From NCBI GenBank assembly GCA_947591215.1, contig CANQCZ010000012.1, positions 1 through 42,076 of the forward strand: a stretch of DNA of 42,076 nucleotides. Direction: 5' to 3'. The DNA is from an uncultured Bacilli bacterium. Lineage in GTDB: Bacteria; Bacillota_I; Bacilli_A; RFN20; CAG-449. The translations under genes and the position numbers were made by a program. How positions within the stretch are numbered: position 1 is the stretch's first letter; each line of letters begins with the position of its first letter. Under the pieces are notes generated by a model that ran no database searches, had not been told where the DNA came from, and was given only the letters and a program-made list of their open reading frames with translations. Positions 6,387 to 29,824 of this stretch are shown here, one piece after another.

Positions 6387-6535
6387 GTATTTATTATTGA
6401 CGTATTAGGAAAGATTAAAAAATTTTTATAGTATAAAATTCGATTATTTTGCCGATATTCTAGGTAAAAAACAAAAAATCTAATTTTCTTGTTTGTATGA
6501 AAAATCATTTTGCTATATCTTTTTAATAATATTAA

Positions 6536-6544
6536 TGTTAAAAT
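6536..6544 (+). promoter_or_regulatory. Candidate extended -10 promoter, cassette 1
   Basis: TGTTAAAAT, an extended -10 element, conserved in position relative to the gene in cassette 2 (TGTTAAGAT at 9533-9541). It predicts a leader of about 90 bases. No convincing -35 is visible, which extended -10 promoters tolerate. Confidence 0.4.
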
Positions 6545-6580
6545 TAGGTTGAAGTAAGATAAAGAACGTTTTTGCTTTGG

Positions 6581-6757
6581 GTTTAAAAATGTTCCGCTTA
6601 GTTCGTAAAAAGGTGATTTAGACCAATTATAAGGAGGTTCAAATGGTATTAAAATCTACTACAAAGACTAAGTTATTACTCTCAACTTTAATGGCACTTA
6701 CCATTGGAGTAGGTGTTGTTAACCAACATGAAAGTGTTGTTAGGGCAGAAGAAAAAA
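6581..6757 (+). repeat. 5' identity block, copy 1 (177 bp)
   Basis: Identical base for base to 9579-9755. It covers the last 62 bases of the leader, including the ribosome binding site AAGGAGG, and the first 38 codons, meaning the whole signal peptide. Homology continues more weakly upstream to about 6522. It stops abruptly where the mature proteins begin to differ. Confidence 0.93.
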
Positions 6758-8943
6758 GCCTGTCGTTAGATTTTAATCTAACGGATGGTAGTGGGGATAG
6801 TAAATTTTTTAACACGCTTGGAGAAAAAAAAGACGGCAGTTATCATAAATTACGTGTATGTTTCGATATATTTGGGAATCCATTTTCTGAAAATGCAACT
6901 GATGAAGACAAACCTCAAGGTAAAGAAAAGTTTGGGGAAGTTTCATTTGTGAATGCTGGTCTAATGACAAATGGTAGTAATGGTAATTCTGATGTTTTAA
7001 ACTATCCGATTATAAGGGGAAATGAGAAGTATGATTATGGAGAGTTTACTTTTACTTTTTTTGACGATGACAAAGATAATTTTTCGGATAATTATTTAAT
7101 AACAAACTTTAATATGACAATTTCAAAATGGGCAAGTGCTAGTAAGGCAGAAGCAATGACAATTGGTGTATATACTTTAAATGATGGCCAAACTAGTTAT
7201 AACACTAATACAACGTCAACTTTTAGCGTAAAAAACGAAAAACCATTTACAGATCAAGTATATTTTAATCTTAATGATCAAGCACCTCTTTCTAATATCA
7301 GAGGCTTAAAATTTAAGACCACTACTACTAATGATGCTCGAGCGGGTATTGTTTCATTAAAAATTTCTTATATCGAAAAAGTAACAAAAAAAACCGTAAC
7401 TTTTAATCCAAACGCGGGTGAAGATGAAGTCTCTTATAGTCAGCCTGAGCTTCCAATAGTATTTGATGTTAACGTAAATGAAACAATTCCTGAAGGATAT
7501 CAACAATTAGAAGTACATCGACAAGGTTATAAATTCCTTGGCTGGTTTAAAGAAGCTTCAGCAGAAAATAAATTTGATTTTTCTCTTCCGATAACAGAAG
7601 ATACTACAATTTATGCCGGTTGGGAAAAAGTAACAACCCAACATAAAGTAACATTTGATGAAAATGGGGGAACTCCTCTTTCAGAAAAAGAAATTCAAGT
7701 ATTAGAAAATAGTTGGATAGAAGAAGAACCAACAACTACTAAAGAAGGATATAAACTTCTTGGCTGGTATGTAACTGAAGATGGTGAAACCAGAAAATGG
7801 GATTTTGAAAATAAAGAAGTTGTTACTAAAGATATTACTCTTAAAGCTAAATGGATTTTAAATGAAGCAGATGAGTTTACTCAATCCGCTGCAGATTCTA
7901 GACTTAGTGTTTCGTATACTAAGGAAGAGTCCTCTGGTGTTGATGAGTTTGTAAAAGTAACAGAAGGTTTAGAAGATTGGACAGGCGAATATTTGATTGC
8001 ATATAATTTGAGTGAAACACAAGCATATGTATATAGTTGTTTAGATGATCAAAGCAATCATGTGTCTGCAATAGTCAACAGTGGTAAAATTTCCTTTAGT
8101 GATACAATTGCTGCATATATGGTAAATATTGAAAAATATTCAACAGGATATTCTATAGCAATCAATTATTCAACAGAAAATCAGGTTAAATATATGGGAT
8201 ATGATACCGATCAAAGCAATGGTATTAATTTTTCTGAAACTCAGCAAATAAATACAATTTCTTGGGATGGGAGTAAGAAAGTTGTTAAAATAACTTCTGA
8301 AAGCGGCAATATTTTTACATATAATAGCAGTACTAGTAATGGTGACAGGTTTAGATATTATAAGTCTAGTACTGTTGATAAACAATCTTCAACATATAAA
8401 TATGTAACCTTATACAAATATAATCCAGGCACCCAAACAAATTATGATGTCACATCCACAACTACAGGATATGGATTAACATTTAATGCTAATGCTTATT
8501 CATCAACAGCAAAATATGGAATGTTCTTAGCTAAAGTGGATGAGGCTAATAAGGATTTAAAATTTGATGTAGAAACTATGGATGTCAATAAAGATAGTGA
8601 TATTACATTAGAAGAAGTTAAAGGAGTTTTAACTGGAAAAGGATTTGATAATCAACAACAATATACTGATTTAAAATTAAATAAAACCGATGAAAAAGGA
8701 GAAATACTTGAATCGGGTAATTACTATACTATGGGTGTTAAGTTTACCTTCAATGATATAGAAAAGTTACCGATTGATGATTGGATTCTCGCGGTCGGAT
8801 ATATGGAAGTTGACGGACAAATTTATTTCTCCTTACCAACTATACATTCTTTGAGAGATTTAGTTAAAATTTATCAAAGCAATGAAGACATTTTACAACA
8901 ACCAGATGCCCAAGGTATCTTAAGTGTACTAGGAGCCTTATAG
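6643..8943 (+). CDS. Secreted InlB-repeat surface protein, cassette 1
   Basis: 766 residues. A Sec signal peptide (1-36, ending HESVVRAEE) is followed by five regions. Residues 38-247 look like a beta-sandwich with the segments NFNMTISKWASASKAEAM and IRGLKFKTTTTNDARAGIVS. Residues 250-328 and 334-404 are two InlB/Listeria-Bacteroides repeats (KVTFDENGG, YKLLGWYVTEDGE, ITLKAKW). Residues about 436-595 form a repeated-strand module (GEYLIAYNLS, YMGYDTDQSNGINF, RFRYYKSS, YVTLYKYN). Residues about 605-766 are the terminal domain shared with the second copy, holding the EF-hand-like loop DVNKDSDITLEE (647-658). There is no LPXTG, membrane tail or SLH domain, so the anchoring mode is unknown. The start has AAGGAGG. 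A small peptide gene and a lipoprotein gene follow. InlB repeats often sit in adhesins; the actual ligand cannot be told. Confidence 0.85.
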   Translation: MVLKSTTKTKLLLSTLMALTIGVGVVNQHESVVRAEEKSLSLDFNLTDGSGDSKFFNTLGEKKDGSYHKLRVCFDIFGNPFSENATDEDKPQGKEKFGEVSFVNAGLMTNGSNGNSDVLNYPIIRGNEKYDYGEFTFTFFDDDKDNFSDNYLITNFNMTISKWASASKAEAMTIGVYTLNDGQTSYNTNTTSTFSVKNEKPFTDQVYFNLNDQAPLSNIRGLKFKTTTTNDARAGIVSLKISYIEKVTKKTVTFNPNAGEDEVSYSQPELPIVFDVNVNETIPEGYQQLEVHRQGYKFLGWFKEASAENKFDFSLPITEDTTIYAGWEKVTTQHKVTFDENGGTPLSEKEIQVLENSWIEEEPTTTKEGYKLLGWYVTEDGETRKWDFENKEVVTKDITLKAKWILNEADEFTQSAADSRLSVSYTKEESSGVDEFVKVTEGLEDWTGEYLIAYNLSETQAYVYSCLDDQSNHVSAIVNSGKISFSDTIAAYMVNIEKYSTGYSIAINYSTENQVKYMGYDTDQSNGINFSETQQINTISWDGSKKVVKITSESGNIFTYNSSTSNGDRFRYYKSSTVDKQSSTYKYVTLYKYNPGTQTNYDVTSTTTGYGLTFNANAYSSTAKYGMFLAKVDEANKDLKFDVETMDVNKDSDITLEEVKGVLTGKGFDNQQQYTDLKLNKTDEKGEILESGNYYTMGVKFTFNDIEKLPIDDWILAVGYMEVDGQIYFSLPTIHSLRDLVKIYQSNEDILQQPDAQGILSVLGAL

Positions 8944-8959
8944 GATAGGAGGAAAAATA

Positions 8960-9097
8960 ATGAAAAGATATATAAAGCCAAATATTTCAGTAGAAAATAT
9001 CAATCTAACGAATATTATTTTGGACTCCGGAACTATCGGAGCTAATTTGGAAGCTTTTGAACAAAAAGATTATCCATTCCAAGTTTTTGAAAATTAA
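8960..9097 (+). CDS. Conserved 45-residue peptide, cassette 1
   Basis: A small gene with an excellent ribosome binding site (AGGAGG, 8948-8953) 16 bases after the upstream stop. The peptide starts MKRYIKPNISVENINLTNII, continues LDSGTIGANLEAFEQK and ends DYPFQVFEN. Its counterpart at 12004-12138 has the same layout with 44 residues: an N-terminal MK-K/R-YIKPN, a middle Asn-x-Ile/Val-Ile-Leu-Asp/Glu-Ser, NLEAFE and an identical tail DYPFQVFEN. It lacks a signal peptide. Short peptides starting MKKYxKP with an Ile/Leu-Ser motif are common in gut Firmicutes and Bacteroidetes as hypothetical proteins; this is from memory, not a search. The conservation of both ends between copies, with synonymous and conservative changes between, argues for a translated gene. 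Function unknown; a partner or precursor peptide is possible. Confidence 0.75.
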   Translation: MKRYIKPNISVENINLTNIILDSGTIGANLEAFEQKDYPFQVFEN

Positions 9098-9339
9098 AAA
9101 ATGAAAAAATTAAGTTTTCTGTTATTGTTGCTACTAGTTAGTTGTACTTCAACGGAGAATACAAGTCTAACTACTAATCAAAACAGTTCTTCAAATAGTA
9201 CAATTAATGTAAGCAGTAGTGATAATAGTGAAAGTGCTGATCTAAGTGATGAACAAACATCATCAGTTACTGTAACAAGCGAAGAGGAAGAAACGAGTAA
9301 AACAGAAAACACGTTGGAATTTCCTCCAATACACTAAAA
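9066..9339 (+). repeat. 3' identity block, copy 1 (274 bp)
   Basis: Identical to 12107-12380. It covers the last ten codons and stop of the small peptide gene and the complete lipoprotein gene, and ends two bases after the lipoprotein stop. The terminators beyond it are unrelated in sequence. Confidence 0.93.
9101..9337 (+). CDS. 78-residue Ser/Thr-rich lipoprotein, cassette 1
   Basis: MKKLSFLLLLLLVSC is a classic lipoprotein signal with lipobox LVSC and lipidated Cys15. The mature part is only 63 residues, dominated by Ser, Thr, Asn and Glu (SSSNSTINVSSSDNSESADL, then EEEETSK), and ends TLEFPPIH with no globular domain. It resembles the Ser-rich stalks that join the lipid to the folded domain in the other lipoproteins of this window, but here nothing follows the stalk. 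The ATG lies three bases after the peptide gene stop and has no ribosome binding site (only A-rich sequence precedes it), so translation is probably coupled to the peptide. An exact copy occurs at 12142-12378. It may be a surface stalk, a spacer or a remnant of a larger lipoprotein. Confidence 0.8.
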   Translation: MKKLSFLLLLLLVSCTSTENTSLTTNQNSSSNSTINVSSSDNSESADLSDEQTSSVTVTSEEEETSKTENTLEFPPIH

Positions 9340-9377
9340 AAAGGGGACTATCGGAATAAAAAGCCTATAGTCCTTTT
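9340..9377 (+). terminator. Terminator of cassette 1
   Basis: GGACTAT (9345-9351) pairs with ATAGTCC (9367-9373), the stem extended by G-U pairs into the flanking AAAAGG and TTTT runs. It ends the first cassette. Confidence 0.75.
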
Positions 9378-9578
9378 AAATTTATTTTAATGATATTTTC
9401 GTTATTTTGAACAAGTTAATTTAATTAATATTTAATTAAATTAAAGTGTTTTTTTATGTTGCTTTTAATAGCTAAAAATAGCTTTATCGGTAGGATGCAT
9501 AAATTTTTTTAATTTATTTTTAATGATATTAATGTTAAGATTTTCTTGAAGTAAGACAAAGAGCATTTTTGCTTTTCA
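9378..9578. other. Gap between the two surface cassettes
   Basis: An AT-rich spacer without a gene. From about 9520 it is homologous to the region upstream of cassette 1 and holds the matching extended -10 TGTTAAGAT (9533-9541). The A/T-rich first part (9380-9500) shows an imperfect TTAATTAA-rich stretch and nothing more. Confidence 0.5.
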
Positions 9579-9755
9579 GTTTAAAAATGTTCCGCTTAGT
9601 TCGTAAAAAGGTGATTTAGACCAATTATAAGGAGGTTCAAATGGTATTAAAATCTACTACAAAGACTAAGTTATTACTCTCAACTTTAATGGCACTTACC
9701 ATTGGAGTAGGTGTTGTTAACCAACATGAAAGTGTTGTTAGGGCAGAAGAAAAAA
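9579..9755 (+). repeat. 5' identity block, copy 2 (177 bp)
   Basis: The second copy of 6581-6757, offset by 2998 bases: leader end, ribosome binding site and signal peptide codons, identical at every base I compared. Confidence 0.93.
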
Positions 9756-11986
9756 ACACAAACATAATAGAAGATATTACTCAAGTGGACGCAGAGAAAG
9801 TAACTTCTTTAGACCAGATAACAGATAGCGGATTATACTATATTACGAAAACAGATACAAAGGATGTCGATAATAGTAAAAATGTATTGAGTAGTTTTAA
9901 TACTAGTAGTAGTAATTATTTTTATGAGATGAAGAATAATGGTACAAACGCACTTGTATTACATTTTAACTTTGTTGAGCAAAAAAGTAATATTAACTAC
10001 TATACAATTAGCCAAGAAGACAATAACAATAAATATTATATAGGTATAACTAAAGATGCTAATTGTATTGATCGTGATAAGTCAGCATCTGGAGATAACT
10101 ATAAATGGAAAATTGAAATTATAAACAAAGATACTGGCGAAATACAAATTACGAATGCTAGTACTACTTATGGTGGTAATAGAATGTTGCAAGCAAATTC
10201 GGATGGTAGCAGATTTGCTTGCTATAAGAATACACAACCAAACGTAAACATCTATAAAATTAATACAAATTTTACAGTAACGTTTGATGCAGCTGGTGGC
10301 GTTTTAAATTCTAAGAAAGAAGTTTTAGTCGAACCCAATAAAAACTTGAGTCGTCCTGTTGATCCTTCGTGGGAGGGACATATTTTTAAAGGTTGGTTCT
10401 ATAATGAAGTTGAATGGAATTTTGATACTGATGTCGTAAAGAGTGATATGACATTAAAAGCTAAATGGGCGAATCTTTACACGATAACTTTTAACACAAA
10501 TGCTAATGGCGATGAGACTTTAGTGTTTGAATCCGATAGTGAAGTTCAAGTTGAAGAAGGAAATATGGTTTCAATGCCGGTTAATTCTCCTAATCGAGCT
10601 GAATATATATTTCAAGGCTGGTATGAATCTTTAGAAGCCGCAAACGCTTTTGACTCAAATGATACATTTGATTTTGATAGAACTCCAATAAGAGAAAATA
10701 AAACATTATATGCAGGATGGAAAAAAGCTCAAAATACTTACACTGTACACTTTGATTCAAATGGAGGCAATCCGGTTGGAGATAAAAAAGTTTTAGAAGG
10801 TGGTTGGCTTATTCCTGAAGAAGTTATTACTAGTAGAGAAAACTATGAATTTGTCGGCTGGTTTACTGAAGATGATGTTAAATGGAATGTTGAAGGTTAT
10901 CAAGGTGTAGAGAGTGACATGACTCTTAAGGCTAAATGGAATCACTTTGATGCTGAATTTTTTTCATACACTGATGCAACAACAAAAATGAGTGTTGGAT
11001 ATGAAAAAAGAAAAGAATCAAAAGAGATTTTGTTAGCTCAATATTCTTTTGATTCAAAAATTACACATAATGATAGTATAGATGCTAGTGGAGTACTTGA
11101 ATTATTCAAAAACAATATCGTAAGCGGAGATAATATTGTAAATGAAAAGAACGGTGTTATAACAGCAAAAAGCATTTATGGTAATACTACAACTCAAGGC
11201 CCAACTGATGCAGGCGGGCTAAGATTAGGTACAAGTAGTGTTAATGGTGAACTTAAGCTAAGCTTAACTAAACCAATTACAAAGGTAGTAGTATATGCAA
11301 GGACATGGAGCACTACATCTACTGAAACCCTTAATGTGAATTATTTAGGCGGTAAAATGGCAGGACAAAATTCTTCTGCAAAATTAGAGTTTAACCTTTC
11401 AGAAGTCAATGAAATAATTTTTACATCTAATAAAAGAGTTGTGATTCAAACTATTGAATTCTATTCAGATGGTGAAAGTGAAGTTTTTGATTTTACTTCT
11501 GCAACCATCGCGTTTGGAACAATTTTAGAAAAAGAAGTTTATCATGAAGATGCAACGTATGGTATGTTCTTAGTAAATGTTGACGAAAATACTAAAGATT
11601 TAGTACTTGATTTAGAAACTTTAGATACTAACCGCAATTATGAGTTAAATTGGGAAGAGGTTAATTCCGTTCTTTCTGAAAAAGGTGCAAAAACTAAGAA
11701 ATATGAAAAATCACGCGTTACTTCAACAGATGAATACGGAAGTCCGGTAGAAGAAGGCGAATATTACACTTATGGTATTAAGTTTGGAGATATGCTTCCT
11801 TATATTGATAATGAACTAATTGCAGTTGGTTACATGGAATTTGAAGGGAAACTTTATTTTAACCAACAAACTCAATACTCATTGAGATCTTTAGCGCAAG
11901 CGTATAAAGATGGTGGCTATCTAAATGACAATGAAGATGCACAAATGATTTTAGATATGCTAATCAATTATGGCTTAGAAGCATAG
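9641..11986 (+). CDS. Secreted InlB-repeat surface protein, cassette 2
   Basis: 781 residues and paralogous to the cassette 1 protein, with the same 38 N-terminal residues. After the signal peptide (1-36) come a repeated-strand module (about 53-207: GLYYITKTDTKDVD, KYYIGITKDANCIDRDKS, RFACYKNTQPNVNIYKI), three InlB repeats (about 211-277, 280-361, 367-434, each with an FxGWF/Y and xLKAKW or LYAGW ending), a beta-sandwich-like module (about 461-612: KPITKVVVYARTWSTTSTET, SEVNEIIFTSNKRVVIQTIE) and the shared terminal domain (about 636-781) with an EF-hand-like loop DTNRNYELNWEE (662-673). Thus the strand module and the sandwich module have exchanged places relative to the other copy, and there is one more InlB repeat. 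No cell-wall sorting signal. Start after AAGGAGG. The ligand is unknown. Confidence 0.85.
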   Translation: MVLKSTTKTKLLLSTLMALTIGVGVVNQHESVVRAEEKNTNIIEDITQVDAEKVTSLDQITDSGLYYITKTDTKDVDNSKNVLSSFNTSSSNYFYEMKNNGTNALVLHFNFVEQKSNINYYTISQEDNNNKYYIGITKDANCIDRDKSASGDNYKWKIEIINKDTGEIQITNASTTYGGNRMLQANSDGSRFACYKNTQPNVNIYKINTNFTVTFDAAGGVLNSKKEVLVEPNKNLSRPVDPSWEGHIFKGWFYNEVEWNFDTDVVKSDMTLKAKWANLYTITFNTNANGDETLVFESDSEVQVEEGNMVSMPVNSPNRAEYIFQGWYESLEAANAFDSNDTFDFDRTPIRENKTLYAGWKKAQNTYTVHFDSNGGNPVGDKKVLEGGWLIPEEVITSRENYEFVGWFTEDDVKWNVEGYQGVESDMTLKAKWNHFDAEFFSYTDATTKMSVGYEKRKESKEILLAQYSFDSKITHNDSIDASGVLELFKNNIVSGDNIVNEKNGVITAKSIYGNTTTQGPTDAGGLRLGTSSVNGELKLSLTKPITKVVVYARTWSTTSTETLNVNYLGGKMAGQNSSAKLEFNLSEVNEIIFTSNKRVVIQTIEFYSDGESEVFDFTSATIAFGTILEKEVYHEDATYGMFLVNVDENTKDLVLDLETLDTNRNYELNWEEVNSVLSEKGAKTKKYEKSRVTSTDEYGSPVEEGEYYTYGIKFGDMLPYIDNELIAVGYMEFEGKLYFNQQTQYSLRSLAQAYKDGGYLNDNEDAQMILDMLINYGLEA

Positions 11987-12003
11987 GAGGAGGTAATGAT
12001 AAT

Positions 12004-12138
12004 ATGAAAAAGTATATTAAACCAAATCTTTCAATTGAAAAAGTTAATTTATCTAATGTTATCTTGGAATCTAGAATCGGAGATAATTTGGAAGCCTTTG
12101 AATCACAAGATTATCCATTCCAAGTTTTTGAAAATTAA
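12004..12138 (+). CDS. Conserved 44-residue peptide, cassette 2
   Basis: Counterpart of the 45-residue peptide at 8960-9097. It starts MKKYIKPNLSIEKVNLSNVI, continues LESRIGDNLEAFESQ and ends DYPFQVFEN. Differences from the other copy are mostly conservative (R/K, I/L, V/I, T/S, D/E) with one residue lost in the middle. The start follows GGAGGAGG. An earlier ATG at 11996 hits a stop after three codons, so 12004 is the real start. No signal peptide or membrane segment. It stands between the large secreted protein and the lipoprotein, exactly as in cassette 1, which suggests the three products work together. Function unknown. Confidence 0.75.
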   Translation: MKKYIKPNLSIEKVNLSNVILESRIGDNLEAFESQDYPFQVFEN

Positions 12139-12380
12139 AAAATGAAAAAATTAAGTTTTCTGTTATTGTTGCTACTAGTTAGTTGTACTTCAACGGAGAA
12201 TACAAGTCTAACTACTAATCAAAACAGTTCTTCAAATAGTACAATTAATGTAAGCAGTAGTGATAATAGTGAAAGTGCTGATCTAAGTGATGAACAAACA
12301 TCATCAGTTACTGTAACAAGCGAAGAGGAAGAAACGAGTAAAACAGAAAACACGTTGGAATTTCCTCCAATACACTAAAA
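12107..12380 (+). repeat. 3' identity block, copy 2 (274 bp)
   Basis: The second copy of 9066-9339, offset by 3041 bases. Offsets of the 5' and 3' blocks differ because the central genes differ in length. Confidence 0.93.
12142..12378 (+). CDS. 78-residue Ser/Thr-rich lipoprotein, cassette 2
   Basis: Identical in DNA and protein to 9101-9337: signal MKKLSFLLLLLLVSC, lipidated Cys15, then a low-complexity Ser/Thr/Asn/Glu stalk ending FPPIH. As in the first copy, it begins three bases after the peptide stop with no ribosome binding site of its own. Complete identity in such a freely variable low-complexity sequence implies a very recent duplication or active gene conversion rather than protein-level constraint. 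Confidence 0.8.
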   Translation: MKKLSFLLLLLLVSCTSTENTSLTTNQNSSSNSTINVSSSDNSESADLSDEQTSSVTVTSEEEETSKTENTLEFPPIH

Positions 12381-12384
12381 TATT

Positions 12385-12416
12385 AGACCATAGAGTTAAA
12401 AACTATGGTCTTTTTT
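12385..12416 (+). terminator. Terminator of cassette 2
   Basis: AGACCATAG (12385-12393) pairs perfectly with CTATGGTCT (12403-12411) around a 9-base loop and is followed by T residues. It is unrelated in sequence to the cassette 1 terminator. Confidence 0.9.
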
Positions 12417-12620
12417 ATGATTAATTATATAAAAAAGGGGATGTGAGGGATTCCTTTCGCTAAAGGCATTGAGGGTTCTGTCTACAATGTAACAAATTTG
12501 TTTTTTGACTTTAAATATGAATTTAATTTTGATTAATTACACAATTGTATAACATAATAAAAATAATCTTTTCTTTTAGATTATTACTTATGGTAATATT
12601 AAATAAAGGAATATTTTTAT

Positions 12621-18742: not shown

Positions 18743-21700
18743 ATGAAAAAGACTCTTGCGTTGCCTTTACTTGTTACTTCCGTTTTTGCAATCGGAGTAT
18801 TGGCGGGTTGTTCTTCCGATGAAAATTCATCGAGTGAAAATTCAGCTTCTTTGAGTGATTCATCTGCTTCGGTCAGTTCTGAATCTGGTTCTTTGGATTC
18901 TGAAACTTCTGATGTGGAAACTAGCCAAGGAACTAGTTCTGATGATTCATCGGTCGGAAGACATGAAACTTCAGGAGAAGGTGTCCCAAGCGACGATTCG
19001 GGTGAAGACGGCGATTATTACGTTGACACTGTAACTGGAGATGAATACGAAAAACAAAATGGGAGATGGGTTAAAGTAAAAGAAGGTGAAAACCTTTATT
19101 ATACTGTCCACTTTGATTTAAATGGTGGTCATATCCCAGGTACAAACGCTACCACGATTCCTGATCAACTCGTTTCTCCAGGACATTGGGTTAGTGCACC
19201 GGAAGTTAATCCGGTTAAAGATAATTACGAATTTAAAGGATGGCTAAGTGATATAAATAATTCAAATTCAATTTGGACCTTTACCTTCCCAGTTTATGGT
19301 AATTTAGTTTTAACCGCATCTTATCGTGTTTCAAGCGATGTTACCAATAAGTTCTCGATTAACATCGATCCGAAAAACGGCGATGATCCTTACACTGTCG
19401 AAACCTTTGCGGGTGATAATCCGGCATTTGCAATTCCATCTAAAGAAAACTTTGCTTTCGTCGGTTGGTATTGGAAAGAAAACGGACAAAAATATCCGGG
19501 ATATATTGAAGACTATGTCGAAGGCGGATGGACTTTAGAGGCCCATTACGAAGTTCAAAAATTTAACTTCCAATATCAAGTTGAAACCAATGGTGAAGTA
19601 ACTATCACAGGACTTCTTGACATTGAAAGTGTCTCGGTATCCGTTCCTGCAACCATCAACGGACGAAATGTTACCAAGATTGGACAAACTGCATTCCAGT
19701 CACGCATTTATTTGGAAAGTGTCACTCTTCCAAGCAGTATTAAAGAAATTGATTCGCGCGCTTTCAATGGTGCCGGACGATTATTAGAAATCAAAGTCGA
19801 CCCCACCAATGCTTATTATGAAGATGTCGATGGAATTCTCTTTAATAAAGGCAGAACGGAATTATTGCGTTATCCATGTAAAAAGGGTAGCAGTTACACC
19901 GTTCCGAATTCCGTACAAAAAATCGGCGATTACGCTTTCTATGGATATGCCGACAATTGTATTTCTTCAATCTTCTTAAATGAAGGATTACAAGAAATCG
20001 GAGCGTATGCTTTCTATCGAAACGAATTAATGACTAATATCGTCTTCCCAAGTTCGCTTAGAAGAATCGGCGATAGTGCCTTTAGTTTCGTTACGGCTCA
20101 AGGTGTTATTACTCAAGTCAGCTTCAATGATGGCCTTGAATATATTGGTGATAGTGCCTTCGTTGGACAATACTTCAAAGATACCTTTACCTTACCATCA
20201 ACTGTTAAACATATCGGTAGTTACGCTTTTGCAAATTGTACTGCGATAAAGAAGTTTGTCTTCCCGCGCGACCTTGAAGAATTAGGTGAAAATGTCTTTA
20301 GCGCCTCTTGGGGACTTCTTGAAATCGACGTTGAAAGTGGTAATACTCATTTCAAAGTTCAAGACAATATGTTATTCGATTACGATATGTCGAAAGTTCT
20401 CTTATGTCCTTCCGGACAACGTGATCCGGTTGAAATTCCTGATAGTGTTACTGAAATCGGAGACTTCGCTTTCTTCTATTGCGATGATCTTGTCGATTAC
20501 ACTTTACCGACAAATCTTCAAAGAATCGGTAAACGTGCCTTCGCATTCTCGGGAATAAAGGAGATTGATATTCCAAATTCGGTTACAGAACTCGGTGAAG
20601 AAGCTTTCGCTTCCTGCTACGATTTAGAAAGGGTCACTTTCGGTTCTGGTTTAAGTACTATTCCGGTCTATGCTTTTGATCAATGCTATCATTTAACTAC
20701 TGTCGATATTCCGGGTAATATCCAAACTATTGAAAACAGCGCTTTCTGGGGTTGCTCTGGTTTAACTTCAGTTACCTTCAAAGAAGGATTAAAAGAAATT
20801 CAAGACAGTGCCTTTTATTTCTCAAATAGCGCCGGTGGTGGCGATGACGATTATGGATATAGTTATGATTCTGGTAATACTCCAGGACTTAAAACTGTCA
20901 CATTCCCGAACTCGCTTGAAACTCTCGGAAGAAATGTCTTTGCTAATCAATCTGCGTTAACTTCGGTTACCTTTGGTACCGGCTTAAAGAACGTAAGCAC
21001 TGAAGCTTTCTCTTCTACCGGATTAGTGGTGATCAACGTTCCGGATGAAAACGAATATTTCTCATATTCCAACAATATTTTATACAATAAAAATAAAACT
21101 GAAATTTATTTAGGCTTAGATACTTTAACCGGTACCTTGACTATGCCTAATACAGTTACTAAGATCGGTGATTATGCCTTCTATCACTTAAATAACATCA
21201 CCGGTATTGTCTTATCGAATCAACTTGAAGAAATCGGATCAGGAGCCTTCGCTTACACTAAAGCTCAAGAAATTTCCTTCCCGGCTTCATTAAGACTTAT
21301 TAAAGATGGTGCTTTCTACATGGGTTCATTGAAGAGCGTTACTTTCGAAGAGGGCGTTCAAGAAATTCAAGACAGTGCCTTCGTAATGAACGATATGACC
21401 ACTCTTGCTTTACCGAATAGTTTACAAACTATCGGTCCTGATGCTTTCAATTGGTGCTCAAGCTTATTAACCGTTACTTTCGGTACTGGCTTAAAGACAA
21501 TTGAAGAACGCGCTTTCTCTGAATGTAGACAATTGCTCGGTTCTAGTGTCAGCGATGAAGGACAAGCTGAAGCTTTAGTCTTACCAAGTGGATTAGAAAC
21601 CCTTGGCGATGGCGCCTTCGCCGCGACTAAAGTTGCAGACTTTGCCTTTGCAGCAGATAATGCTAACTTCAAAGTTGTAAATGGTATGATCTTAGATCAA

Positions 21701-22078
21701 GAAGAAAAAGTCGTTTACGCTTACGCAAGCGGCAACGCTCAAACTTCTTTGGAACTTCCAAGTACCGTTACTGAAATCAGACCATATGCTTTTGCAGCCG
21801 GTCTTGTTACCAATCTTACTTCGTTAAAGCTTTCTGAAAATCTTGAAAAAATCGGACAACAAGCATTCGCTAACTGCGTTAAGATCGGTTCAATCGTGAT
21901 TCCAATGAGCGTTACTACCGTCGAAAGAAGAATCTTCGCTAACTGGGGCGCCAATCAATTGGTTTACTTCGAATGTAGTGAAGATTACGCTTTAGCAAAC
22001 TTCGATCCCGATTACCTCGGCAGCTTACACAATTCTGCCCGTGAAAAAGTTACCTACGACTATCATGCAGCGGAGTAA
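18743..22078 (+). CDS. BspA-like leucine-rich-repeat surface lipoprotein
   Basis: 1111 residues. The signal MKKTLALPLLVTSVFAIGVL then AGC gives lipidated Cys23. Residues 24-95 are a Ser/Asp/Glu stalk. Two InlB-type repeats follow (about 119-195, VHFDLNGGHI...YEFKGWL; and 203-270, INIDPKNGDD...FAFVGWY). From about 275 to 1105 I count 26 BspA/TpLRR units of the IGDYAFYG / LPSSLKEI type, interrupted by four BspA inserts of the form FN/YxDxDGILFNKGRTELLRYP. Such proteins are adhesins in Tannerella, Treponema and gut bacteria; the ligand is unknown. Codon use is richer in C-ending codons (TTC, GCC, ATC) than the InlB cassette genes, closer to the ribosomal genes, which suggests high expression. 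The next lipoprotein gene starts two bases after the stop, so the two are coupled. Confidence 0.92.
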   Translation: MKKTLALPLLVTSVFAIGVLAGCSSDENSSSENSASLSDSSASVSSESGSLDSETSDVETSQGTSSDDSSVGRHETSGEGVPSDDSGEDGDYYVDTVTGDEYEKQNGRWVKVKEGENLYYTVHFDLNGGHIPGTNATTIPDQLVSPGHWVSAPEVNPVKDNYEFKGWLSDINNSNSIWTFTFPVYGNLVLTASYRVSSDVTNKFSINIDPKNGDDPYTVETFAGDNPAFAIPSKENFAFVGWYWKENGQKYPGYIEDYVEGGWTLEAHYEVQKFNFQYQVETNGEVTITGLLDIESVSVSVPATINGRNVTKIGQTAFQSRIYLESVTLPSSIKEIDSRAFNGAGRLLEIKVDPTNAYYEDVDGILFNKGRTELLRYPCKKGSSYTVPNSVQKIGDYAFYGYADNCISSIFLNEGLQEIGAYAFYRNELMTNIVFPSSLRRIGDSAFSFVTAQGVITQVSFNDGLEYIGDSAFVGQYFKDTFTLPSTVKHIGSYAFANCTAIKKFVFPRDLEELGENVFSASWGLLEIDVESGNTHFKVQDNMLFDYDMSKVLLCPSGQRDPVEIPDSVTEIGDFAFFYCDDLVDYTLPTNLQRIGKRAFAFSGIKEIDIPNSVTELGEEAFASCYDLERVTFGSGLSTIPVYAFDQCYHLTTVDIPGNIQTIENSAFWGCSGLTSVTFKEGLKEIQDSAFYFSNSAGGGDDDYGYSYDSGNTPGLKTVTFPNSLETLGRNVFANQSALTSVTFGTGLKNVSTEAFSSTGLVVINVPDENEYFSYSNNILYNKNKTEIYLGLDTLTGTLTMPNTVTKIGDYAFYHLNNITGIVLSNQLEEIGSGAFAYTKAQEISFPASLRLIKDGAFYMGSLKSVTFEEGVQEIQDSAFVMNDMTTLALPNSLQTIGPDAFNWCSSLLTVTFGTGLKTIEERAFSECRQLLGSSVSDEGQAEALVLPSGLETLGDGAFAATKVADFAFAADNANFKVVNGMILDQEEKVVYAYASGNAQTSLELPSTVTEIRPYAFAAGLVTNLTSLKLSENLEKIGQQAFANCVKIGSIVIPMSVTTVERRIFANWGANQLVYFECSEDYALANFDPDYLGSLHNSAREKVTYDYHAAE

Positions 22079-22080
22079 TT

Positions 22081-23181
22081 ATGAACAAAAAAGTTTTATC
22101 AGTTTTAGTTCTTAGTTTGCTATTGTGTGTCGGATGTCAAGGCGGAAGTGACGATAAAAGCGAAGACGTTTCTTCGTCTAATGAATCTTCTAGTTCTGTA
22201 GCGCAATTAGGCGGAAAAGTAACATTCTATCTTAATTACGATGAAAATGATGACGAAGTTTATCTTACTAAAACACTTTCCGCGACAGATACTTTAAAAA
22301 CTCCAGTACGTCCAATCCGCAAAGATTATGTCTTTGCGGGCTGGAGTACTGCTCGAAGTGGTACAGTTTTATTTGACGGATTTGATTCTACTATAAACGG
22401 TGATTTATCGCTATACGCGATTTGGACTGACTATGCGTCTATGGACGATCTTACCAAAGTCACCAGATTTTTAGAAAAAATCAAATCGATAGAAGGTACA
22501 GTTAGCGAGACATTTCAATCAGAAAGCGGTACGTTAATGTACTATATGCCATTACAATACGGCGGCCAATATCGTGATGAAATCGAGTATCATCGTTACG
22601 ACGACATCATGGTTCAAAACTATTTTTACTACAACCAAGATGCAAGACAACAATATGGTGAACGTCAATTCTTCGTTCAAGATAACAAAGCCTACGATCT
22701 ATATAAAGATTTTGAATATTCGGCCGACAATAAAGCGTCGTATCAAAATTTATCGCAAAACTTTTCGTTAGATAACTGGCTTGATATTGGTTTTTCAAGC
22801 ATACATTTATATTATCTGTATGCCCTTCAAAGACAGTTAGTGCAACAAACTTGCGATGAAATCGACTATGATTTGAACTTTAATTATGATGAAGTAGATG
22901 AATATTCCAATTCTTATTCTTTCTCATATCGATATTATACTCTTAGCACATTAAGTGGAATTATATCGGAAGAAGAGCATAGTTTTACAATTACGATTGC
23001 TTTCTTAAATCGTAAAATTGTACGTTCCATTGCCGAAGGTTCTAGTTGGACCGCTATCGGCGGAGATCTTGCAACTGAAGATGAATTCCTTTGGGAATGT
23101 AGATACACCCAAGCAGACTCGATTGGTGAGTTTGAAGGAGAACGTTTCAATCCCAGTGATTTCAATTTCAGTAGTCTATAA
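22081..23181 (+). CDS. Lipoprotein with one InlB repeat
   Basis: 366 residues. MNKKVLSVLVLSLLLCVGC gives lipobox CVGC with Cys19, followed by a short Ser/Asp stalk (20-42). Residues about 46-117 are one InlB-type repeat (KVTFYLNYDENDDEVYLTKT, YVFAGWSTARSG, LSLYAIWTD). Residues 118-366 form an unrecognised, Tyr-rich, probably beta-rich domain (IEGTVSETFQSESGTLMYYM, YNQDARQQYGERQFFVQDNK, FTITIAFLNRKIVRSI) whose antiparallel look resembles curved-sheet lipid carrier lipoproteins such as LolA/LppX; this is only a resemblance. The ATG is two bases beyond the BspA-like stop, with GCGGAG as ribosome binding site, so the two proteins are made together and probably sit at the surface together. Confidence 0.82.
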   Translation: MNKKVLSVLVLSLLLCVGCQGGSDDKSEDVSSSNESSSSVAQLGGKVTFYLNYDENDDEVYLTKTLSATDTLKTPVRPIRKDYVFAGWSTARSGTVLFDGFDSTINGDLSLYAIWTDYASMDDLTKVTRFLEKIKSIEGTVSETFQSESGTLMYYMPLQYGGQYRDEIEYHRYDDIMVQNYFYYNQDARQQYGERQFFVQDNKAYDLYKDFEYSADNKASYQNLSQNFSLDNWLDIGFSSIHLYYLYALQRQLVQQTCDEIDYDLNFNYDEVDEYSNSYSFSYRYYTLSTLSGIISEEEHSFTITIAFLNRKIVRSIAEGSSWTAIGGDLATEDEFLWECRYTQADSIGEFEGERFNPSDFNFSSL

Positions 23182-29200: not shown

Positions 29201-29215
29201 TAAATTTTAAAGCTC

Positions 29216-29301
29216 CAATATACCTAAGACAGCAACGGCTTTAAGCTTAATTATGTTGCCGAGGTACCTATTCATGAATATGATTAGTCACCTGTATATT
29301 G
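29216..29301 (+). ncRNA. Ribosomal protein L10 leader RNA
   Basis: The outer stem CAATATAC (29216-29223) pairs with GTATATTG (29294-29301). Inside are CTAAGACAGCAACGGC and GTTGCCGAGGTACC, conserved features of the L10 leader found upstream of rplJ-rplL in Firmicutes. The L10(L12)4 complex is known to bind this type of leader and lower rplJL expression. The position immediately before rplJ agrees. Confidence 0.85.
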
Positions 29302-29304
29302 TTG

Positions 29305-29326
29305 CCTATATAAAAACTTTATAAGG
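29305..29326 (+). promoter_or_regulatory. Hairpin covering the rplJ ribosome binding site
   Basis: CCTATATAAA (29305-29314) pairs with TTTATAAGG (29318-29326) in nine base pairs with one bulge. The second arm takes in part of AAGGAGG. It can sequester the rplJ ribosome binding site, giving an output for the L10 leader upstream. Confidence 0.5.
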
Positions 29327-29335
29327 AGGTGCAAT

Positions 29336-29824
29336 ATGAACCAAAACGTGTTAGAAGCCAAAAAGGCGATCGTCGGTGAACTTACCGACCTATTAAAAAC
29401 TTCTAATTCTGTAGTAGTTGCTGAATACCGTGGTTTAACTGTCGCGGAACTCACCGAACTCAGAAAAGAGCTTTTAAAGAAAAATGCAAAAATGGGCGTC
29501 TACAAAAATTCACTTTTCACTCGTGCGGTTGATGAATTAGGACACGAAGACTTAAATCAATATTTAGTCGGACCTAACGCATATATCACTTGTGAAGATC
29601 CTCTTGAAGGACCGAAAGTGGTTACCAAATTTGCTAAAAAACACGAAAATCTAATTATTAAAGGTGGATTGATTGAAGGCAAGGTCATGTCAGCGGACGA
29701 AATTAAAGACTTTGCAAAGCTTCCAAACAGAGAGGGCGTTCTTTCGATGTTACTATCTGTTTTACAAGCTCCAGTTCGTTCATTCGCATGTGCGGTAAAA
29801 GCTATCGCAGACAAACAACAATAA
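29336..29824 (+). CDS. rplJ: 50S ribosomal protein L10
   Basis: 162 residues, near the usual 165-170. It starts [20 protein letters not shown] and has the conserved [47 protein letters not shown] and [20 protein letters not shown], then the C-terminal helix [20 protein letters not shown] that carries L12 dimers. L10 anchors the L7/L12 stalk. Translation begins after ATAAGGAGGTGCAAT, part of which can be hidden in a hairpin. rplL follows 25 bases later. It belongs to an L10-leader-controlled unit. Confidence 0.96.

Follow-up and report, generated by a model that had tools for sequence, protein, structure and literature searches.

The 42,076-nucleotide window analyzed here is one complete contig (C12) of a 1.54 Mb draft genome (G000) of an uncultured Bacilli bacterium (GCA_947591215.1, contig CANQCZ010000012.1), and it carries two tandem cassettes, each encoding a large secreted protein, a peptide of 45 or 44 residues and a lipoprotein of 78 residues. 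We conclude that the two peptides are very probably precursors of a system of ribosomally synthesized and post-translationally modified peptides (RiPPs) that resembles the Linear Polyphosphorylated Peptides (LPP; Popov et al., May 2026, PMC13381572). The combined reading, in which such precursors are served in trans by a single enzyme set and each of them is coupled to a secreted protein, is held with good, somewhat lower confidence. The first-pass annotation of this DNA knew of no system with such a trio. This view is superseded, as the peptides bear hallmarks of LPP-type precursors and a matching enzyme operon, whose trans-acting products the annotation had missed, is present in the same genome.

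To follow the peptide beyond the window, 58 related genomes were searched, and family members were found within the genus and, beyond it, in several further genera. Their consensus, MKxYIKPxLxIExIxLxDVILxS, is followed by a variable acidic tail rich in Phe and Trp, and the first 18 peptides all have K2, Y4, P7 and S23. In an enlarged set of 53 peptides, which was found by profile and hence favours conserved positions, both Lys at Y-2 and YxxP are present in 52 (one peptide has FxxP), while Ser is located exactly at Y+19 in 50 and is shifted within a few residues of this position in the other three. The invariant Ser is never replaced by Thr, Ala or Gly. RiPP leaders use YxxP followed by x and a hydrophobic residue to bind PqqD-like RiPP recognition element (RRE) proteins. 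The profile reaches four genera of the window's family and, at the level of order and class, several additional families, with a maximum of eleven copies per genome; the genome studied here contains four precursors, on contigs C12, C1 and C30. Since the ratio of nonsynonymous to synonymous substitution rates (dN/dS) lies between 0.24 and 0.40 in four pairs of orthologs, we regard the peptide as a translated and constrained product. No Pfam or NCBIfam model matched the peptides above its cut-off; the RaS-RiPP family (HGH, NF050042) was considered and rejected at a score of 14.9 bits against a cut-off of 45. A search of the PDB with the peptide profile gave no match, and a literature search for the peptide string found no paper.

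On contig C24 of the same genome, five genes form an operon in the order K-B-S-D-N, which is followed by capsule genes (Wzz, CpsB and a sugar transferase). K is an HprK-like kinase of 272 residues with the Walker A motif APSGTGKSTH, and its gene adjoins that of the RRE. The AlphaFold2 (AF2) model of K (pLDDT 90), compared by Foldseek, matches both HprK/P, at an E-value of about 1e-6, and the related PEPCK fold; a sequence search of the PDB with the K profile gave no match. B is a discrete PqqD-like RRE protein (PqqD, E=3e-12), in which N35 and D72 are 37 positions apart, like N33 and D70 of LppB, and both residues are conserved in all seven aligned B proteins. S, likewise encoded next to the RRE gene, is a SipW-like signal peptidase of the S24/S26 type (PF00717/PF10502; TIGR02228 at E=1e-10 for the homolog at locus L144). 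D is an ATP-binding cassette (ABC) exporter (ABC_membrane and ABC_tran), and N belongs to NTP_transf_5 (PF14907, E=4e-30). In a related genome (G351), the peptide unit is followed directly by HprK-like, PqqD-like and signal-peptidase-like proteins, and in other families the peptide is located inside or near a K-B-S-N operon. Relatives of K and B are also encoded in Kandleria vitulina (L222) and Streptococcus merionis (L219). Precursor genes located at a distance from the enzyme genes are a marked trait of the window's family. Directly upstream of the K gene, a lipoprotein of 801 residues with a CotH kinase domain (PF08757; 8041-10446 of locus L173 on contig C24) is encoded in three genomes of the genus and could be another partner of the system.

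The occurrence of the peptide follows that of the enzymes. Within the window's family, the RRE and the peptide (threshold E<1e-3) are both present in nine genomes and both absent from eight, and the one discordant genome is 65% complete. In a sample of the class comprising 395 genomes, all 18 genomes with a strong peptide match contain PqqD (present in 77 of the 395; hypergeometric 2.8e-14, a value that overstates independence because the genomes are related, though several families are involved), and all 18 contain K (70 of the 395). The 16 best K scores in this sample all come from peptide genomes; eight of these 16 were used to build the K profile and the other eight did not contribute to it. 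With a wider peptide profile, 29 of 372 genomes were positive, and each of the 29 has both PqqD and K.

The first-pass annotation had proposed that peptide and secreted protein form a conserved unit, and this is borne out by about 60 loci of relatives in which the two are found side by side. A large secreted-type protein is encoded directly beside the peptide in 55 of 60 loci, compared with 26% of the other genes of at least 180 codons at the same loci. These calls were made by a crude predictor; of the five failures, four or more are apparently split or truncated genes, and at least one of the 55 positives (L125) appears by eye to be a false positive. In other families, too, the peptide immediately precedes or follows a large secreted protein (12 of 14 loci, the genes often overlapping by 3-24 nucleotides), and we therefore consider the link, as seen in these gene arrangements, a general feature of this peptide group. 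The comparison that the annotation had suggested, with the C-terminal domain shared by the two window proteins, was also carried out: all 17 strong family matches (E <= 2.7e-20) abut a family peptide, three of them (one on G003:C35 and two on G007:C74) lying outside the set from which the profile was built. Six weaker matches were found, one of which has a peptide (G017:C39) and three of which have none (G002:C4, G017:C8 and G014:C28), the remaining two (G002:C6 and G011:C60) being left out; G014, where the domain match has no peptide, is a genome that also lacks the machinery.

Two further elements of the proposed trio did not hold among relatives. The tiny Ser-rich lipoprotein, taken to be a fixed third member, is optional and occurs in roughly 20 of the 60 loci, that is, in about one third. 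Neither is the gene order fixed: the peptide gene is 3' of the secreted protein gene in most loci and 5' of it in L021, L037, L110, L112, L114 and L122 as well as, in other families, in L305, L312 and L319. The partner proteins include members with Listeria-Bacteroides repeats, bacterial Ig-like domains, Endonuclease I and carbohydrate-binding modules below threshold, many have no Pfam match, and they share little beyond the signal peptide. Like surface proteins with the Listeria-Bacteroides repeat (InlB B-repeat; PF09479/TIGR02543), both window proteins and the partners at L145 and L161 contain this repeat, but it is restricted to some partners, whereas the signal peptide and the adjoining peptide gene constitute the constant part. 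In several families (L322, L323, L325 and L327), the large partner is followed by a gene that ends in NRNPFIDxPE, which we take to be an Endonuclease I motif, Pfam support being confined to L148; such endings suggest that these units include secreted nucleases.

As far as the main text of the LPP description extends (PMC13381572), the resemblance covers both precursor and enzymes. The precursors have in common a KxYxxPx[hydrophobic] leader and a conserved Ser, and the YxxPx[L/V/I/F/A] RRE-binding motif of LPP leaders is present in our peptides. The enzymes in common are an RRE with an Asn/Asp pair that selects Tyr, an HprK-like kinase, a SipW-like peptidase, an MsbA-like exporter and an NTP transferase, with capsule genes adjoining. 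In contrast to LPP as presented there, Ser is found at Y+19 instead of Y+18 of the consensus, the core is short (about 14-35 residues after Y+15, compared with 45), several precursors are scattered away from the enzyme operon in the window's family, and each precursor is tied to a large secreted protein and sometimes to a small lipoprotein. The same text reports that LppK did not phosphorylate an S3T variant, and states that the role of LPP was unknown at first description.

By analogy with LPP, we infer the following course of events. The leader, i.e., the N-terminal half with KxYxxPx[LI], would be captured by the RRE protein B via Tyr and Pro, the HprK-like kinase K would phosphorylate the invariant Ser at position 23, and the SipW-like peptidase S would remove the leader. 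N may decorate the phosphate, and the ABC transporter D would then export the core, an acidic stretch of about 22-26 residues rich in Phe and Trp. All five proteins are encoded by a single set of genes, on a different contig and next to the capsule genes, and would probably act in trans on several precursors dispersed in the genome. Every precursor would be co-transcribed with its large secreted protein, often together with the small Ser-rich lipoprotein, and core and protein would act together outside the cell. Since the Ser is strictly conserved and its distance from the Tyr is kept, we favour a role as the predicted phosphorylation site over one as the residue preceding the cleavage site.

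What the exported core might do can be proposed only tentatively. Among possible mechanisms we favour, without rating it as probable, one in which the modified core would serve as an adaptor, keeping its partner on the capsule or cell surface or displaying it there, and the lipoprotein would be the holder in the membrane; the hints for this are the adjoining capsule genes, the carbohydrate-binding partners and the likeness between lipoprotein tails and core tails. The latter was noted as ELPVIPI in both proteins at L231, YDEFP/YIEFP at L035 and WGEV/WGEI at L021. At L231 (9189-9765), the lipoprotein ends in SIELPVIPIG and the core of the adjacent peptide in PIELPVIPID. Moreover, Trp is part of PW or WG in 20 of 40 cases in the cores (7.3 when shuffled) and in 12 of 15 in the lipoprotein tails (2.4 when shuffled), an enrichment that is partly circular, given the relatedness of the loci and the selection of the tails by eye. 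A more specific version, which we consider unlikely in its full form, is that K and N would furnish the core with a phospho-linked sugar or glycan and that the core, once exported by D, would bind the C-terminal region of the partner. One enzyme set would thereby provide a general adaptor by which many different secreted proteins are attached to the capsule, a route alongside sortase and lipobox anchoring, and the lipoprotein would be a membrane-bound version of the hook.

Several observations weigh against the interpretation as LPP-like precursors with surface partners. The kinase family models match K weakly, including HprK_rel_A. In the contig stretch read for G006, neither D nor N adjoins K-B-S, and G013 has no adjoining D. 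In the class sample, 59 genomes have an RRE and no strong peptide match, so that having an RRE is not sufficient to predict the peptide. The published leader consensus, YxxPxVLxHQxIxFETxxS in the main text of the LPP paper, is matched only in YxxPx[hydrophobic] and in having a Ser further downstream, and its HQ and FET elements are missing; because this exact consensus was tested and not found, we classify the system, by its leader sequences, as an LPP-like variant and not as a strict LPP member. Copying of a locus's own core tail by its lipoprotein tail is statistically weak (p=0.013 with L231 and 0.13 without it) and serves as a lead. Finally, co-transcription is deduced from gene spacing, the coupling could reflect joint regulation only, and contact between core and partner is a prediction.

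Among the alternatives, the one that deserves most attention, although we consider it rather improbable, is that the LPP-like RiPP is a diffusible signal or an antimicrobial and that the secreted protein and the lipoprotein are co-regulated effectors or immunity proteins. RiPPs frequently act as signals or weapons, some bacteriocin systems use small lipoproteins for immunity, and Endonuclease I proteins are found among the partners. In addition, a LytTR response regulator (Pfam) follows the unit at L114 (4142-8001) and L118 (4154-8001), together with a gene that by eye resembles an AgrC-type histidine kinase; in some relatives the two may form a regulatory arm. However, such regulators are absent from most loci, about two thirds of the loci have no lipoprotein, and the constant neighbour is a large protein, which neither immunity nor signalling accounts for. 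If the peptide were not a RiPP but a cytosolic chaperone or escort for the secretion of its neighbour, its lack of a signal peptide, the tight gene coupling and the acidic amphipathic tail would be explained; we consider this very unlikely, as the most constant peptide residues are those used by RRE and kinase while the partners have little in common except the signal peptide, and the presence of the peptide tracks K and B (18/18 and 29/29).

An even lower probability is assigned to a lasso peptide precursor. YxxPx[hydrophobic] is a lasso leader motif as well, and the set of RRE, HprK-like kinase and NTP transferase is also seen with paeninodin-type phosphorylated lasso peptides. Unlike in the latter, the B2 cysteine protease (PF13471) is found in none of the 18 family genomes, on which ground the lasso reading was rejected. 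A SipW-like peptidase takes its place, the leader has Tyr instead of Trp, and no macrolactam cyclase was detected in the enzyme operons read, to which this search was limited. Practically negligible is the chance that the duplication of a single operon produced the trio by accident and that its small reading frames are functionless; the lipoprotein DNA is indeed identical between the copies, but the dN/dS values of the peptide and the roughly 60 loci in several families refute it.

Within the window, the six open reading frames (ORFs) are present in the order given by the first-pass annotation (Table 1), and terminator-like hairpins with T-runs lie 3' of both cassettes, as it had stated. The extended -10 elements that it had placed in front of the cassettes can be read as TGTTAAAAT and TGTTAAGAT; a promoter scan performed no better than on shuffled sequence (33 sites versus 33), which leaves them unproven. 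AGGAGG-type ribosome binding sites precede the start codons of both peptide genes, and three nucleotides separate each peptide stop codon from the ATG of the lipoprotein gene.

Table 1. Features of the two cassettes, with positions in the window.
Feature	Position	Strand	Basis
Cassette 1 large secreted protein, 766 aa: Sec-type signal, two Listeria-Bacteroides repeats, C-terminal beta domain	6643..8943	+	ORF; Pfam PF09479 E=7e-23
Cassette 1 peptide, 45 aa, predicted LPP-like RiPP precursor (K2, Y4xxP7, S23)	8960..9097	+	ORF, motif; dN/dS 0.4 vs G002 ortholog
Cassette 1 Ser/Glu-rich lipoprotein, 78 aa, tail LEFPPIH	9101..9337	+	Lipobox LLVSC; similar gene, same tail, in G002 locus L022
Terminator-like hairpin 3' of cassette 1	9341..9377	+	RNA fold -14.0 kcal/mol, then T-run
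Shared 5' block of cassette 2 (untranslated region and signal peptide)	9517..9755	+	95% identical to 6520-6757
Cassette 2 large secreted protein, 781 aa: signal peptide identical to cassette 1, three Listeria-Bacteroides repeats	9641..11986	+	
Cassette 2 peptide, 44 aa, predicted LPP-like RiPP precursor	12004..12138	+	ORF, motif
Cassette 2 lipoprotein, 78 aa	12142..12378	+	DNA identical to 9101-9337
Terminator-like hairpin 3' of cassette 2	12385..12411	+	RNA fold -11.3 kcal/mol, then six T

The DNA match between the two cassettes is confined to their ends, namely the shared 5' block and 8956-9339 versus 12001-12380 (93%), and no blastn match between the copies was found in the middle. Because sharing is restricted in this way and the lipoprotein genes are identical base for base (237/237), the likeness of leader and lipoprotein, judged at the DNA level, is attributed to recent duplication or conversion and not to selection, and a functional trio is not demonstrable from the copies alone. 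The C-terminal domains of the two secreted proteins (8470-8940 and 11510-11983) are 41% identical; an AF2 model of that of cassette 1 (pLDDT 80) found no significant match in the PDB (best E=0.06).

The cassettes occupy a site between genes for a YihY-like membrane protein and a P-type ATPase (6400-12600 of the window), where sister genomes carry differing cassettes (L022, L023 and L027). From this comparison of gene content, the site appears to be a hot spot for cassette exchange. Elsewhere in the window, 18743-23181 encodes two more lipoproteins with Listeria-Bacteroides repeats and no adjoining peptide, one of which (1111 residues) has BspA-type leucine-rich repeats. An Rfam scan of the window gave no match within the cassettes; its sole match is a ribosomal protein L10 leader RNA (RF00557) at 29205-29309, 5' of an rplJ-like gene at 29336.

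Taken together, the reading of these peptides as LPP-like precursors would provide the first concrete partner protein for each peptide of an LPP-like family, and the coupling of peptide and secreted protein indicates that the function is to be sought at the cell surface, not in warfare. It would also extend LPP-like precursors across many families of one bacterial class and give the small KxYxxP...S genes, which go unrecognized by Pfam and NCBIfam, a probable biochemical role.

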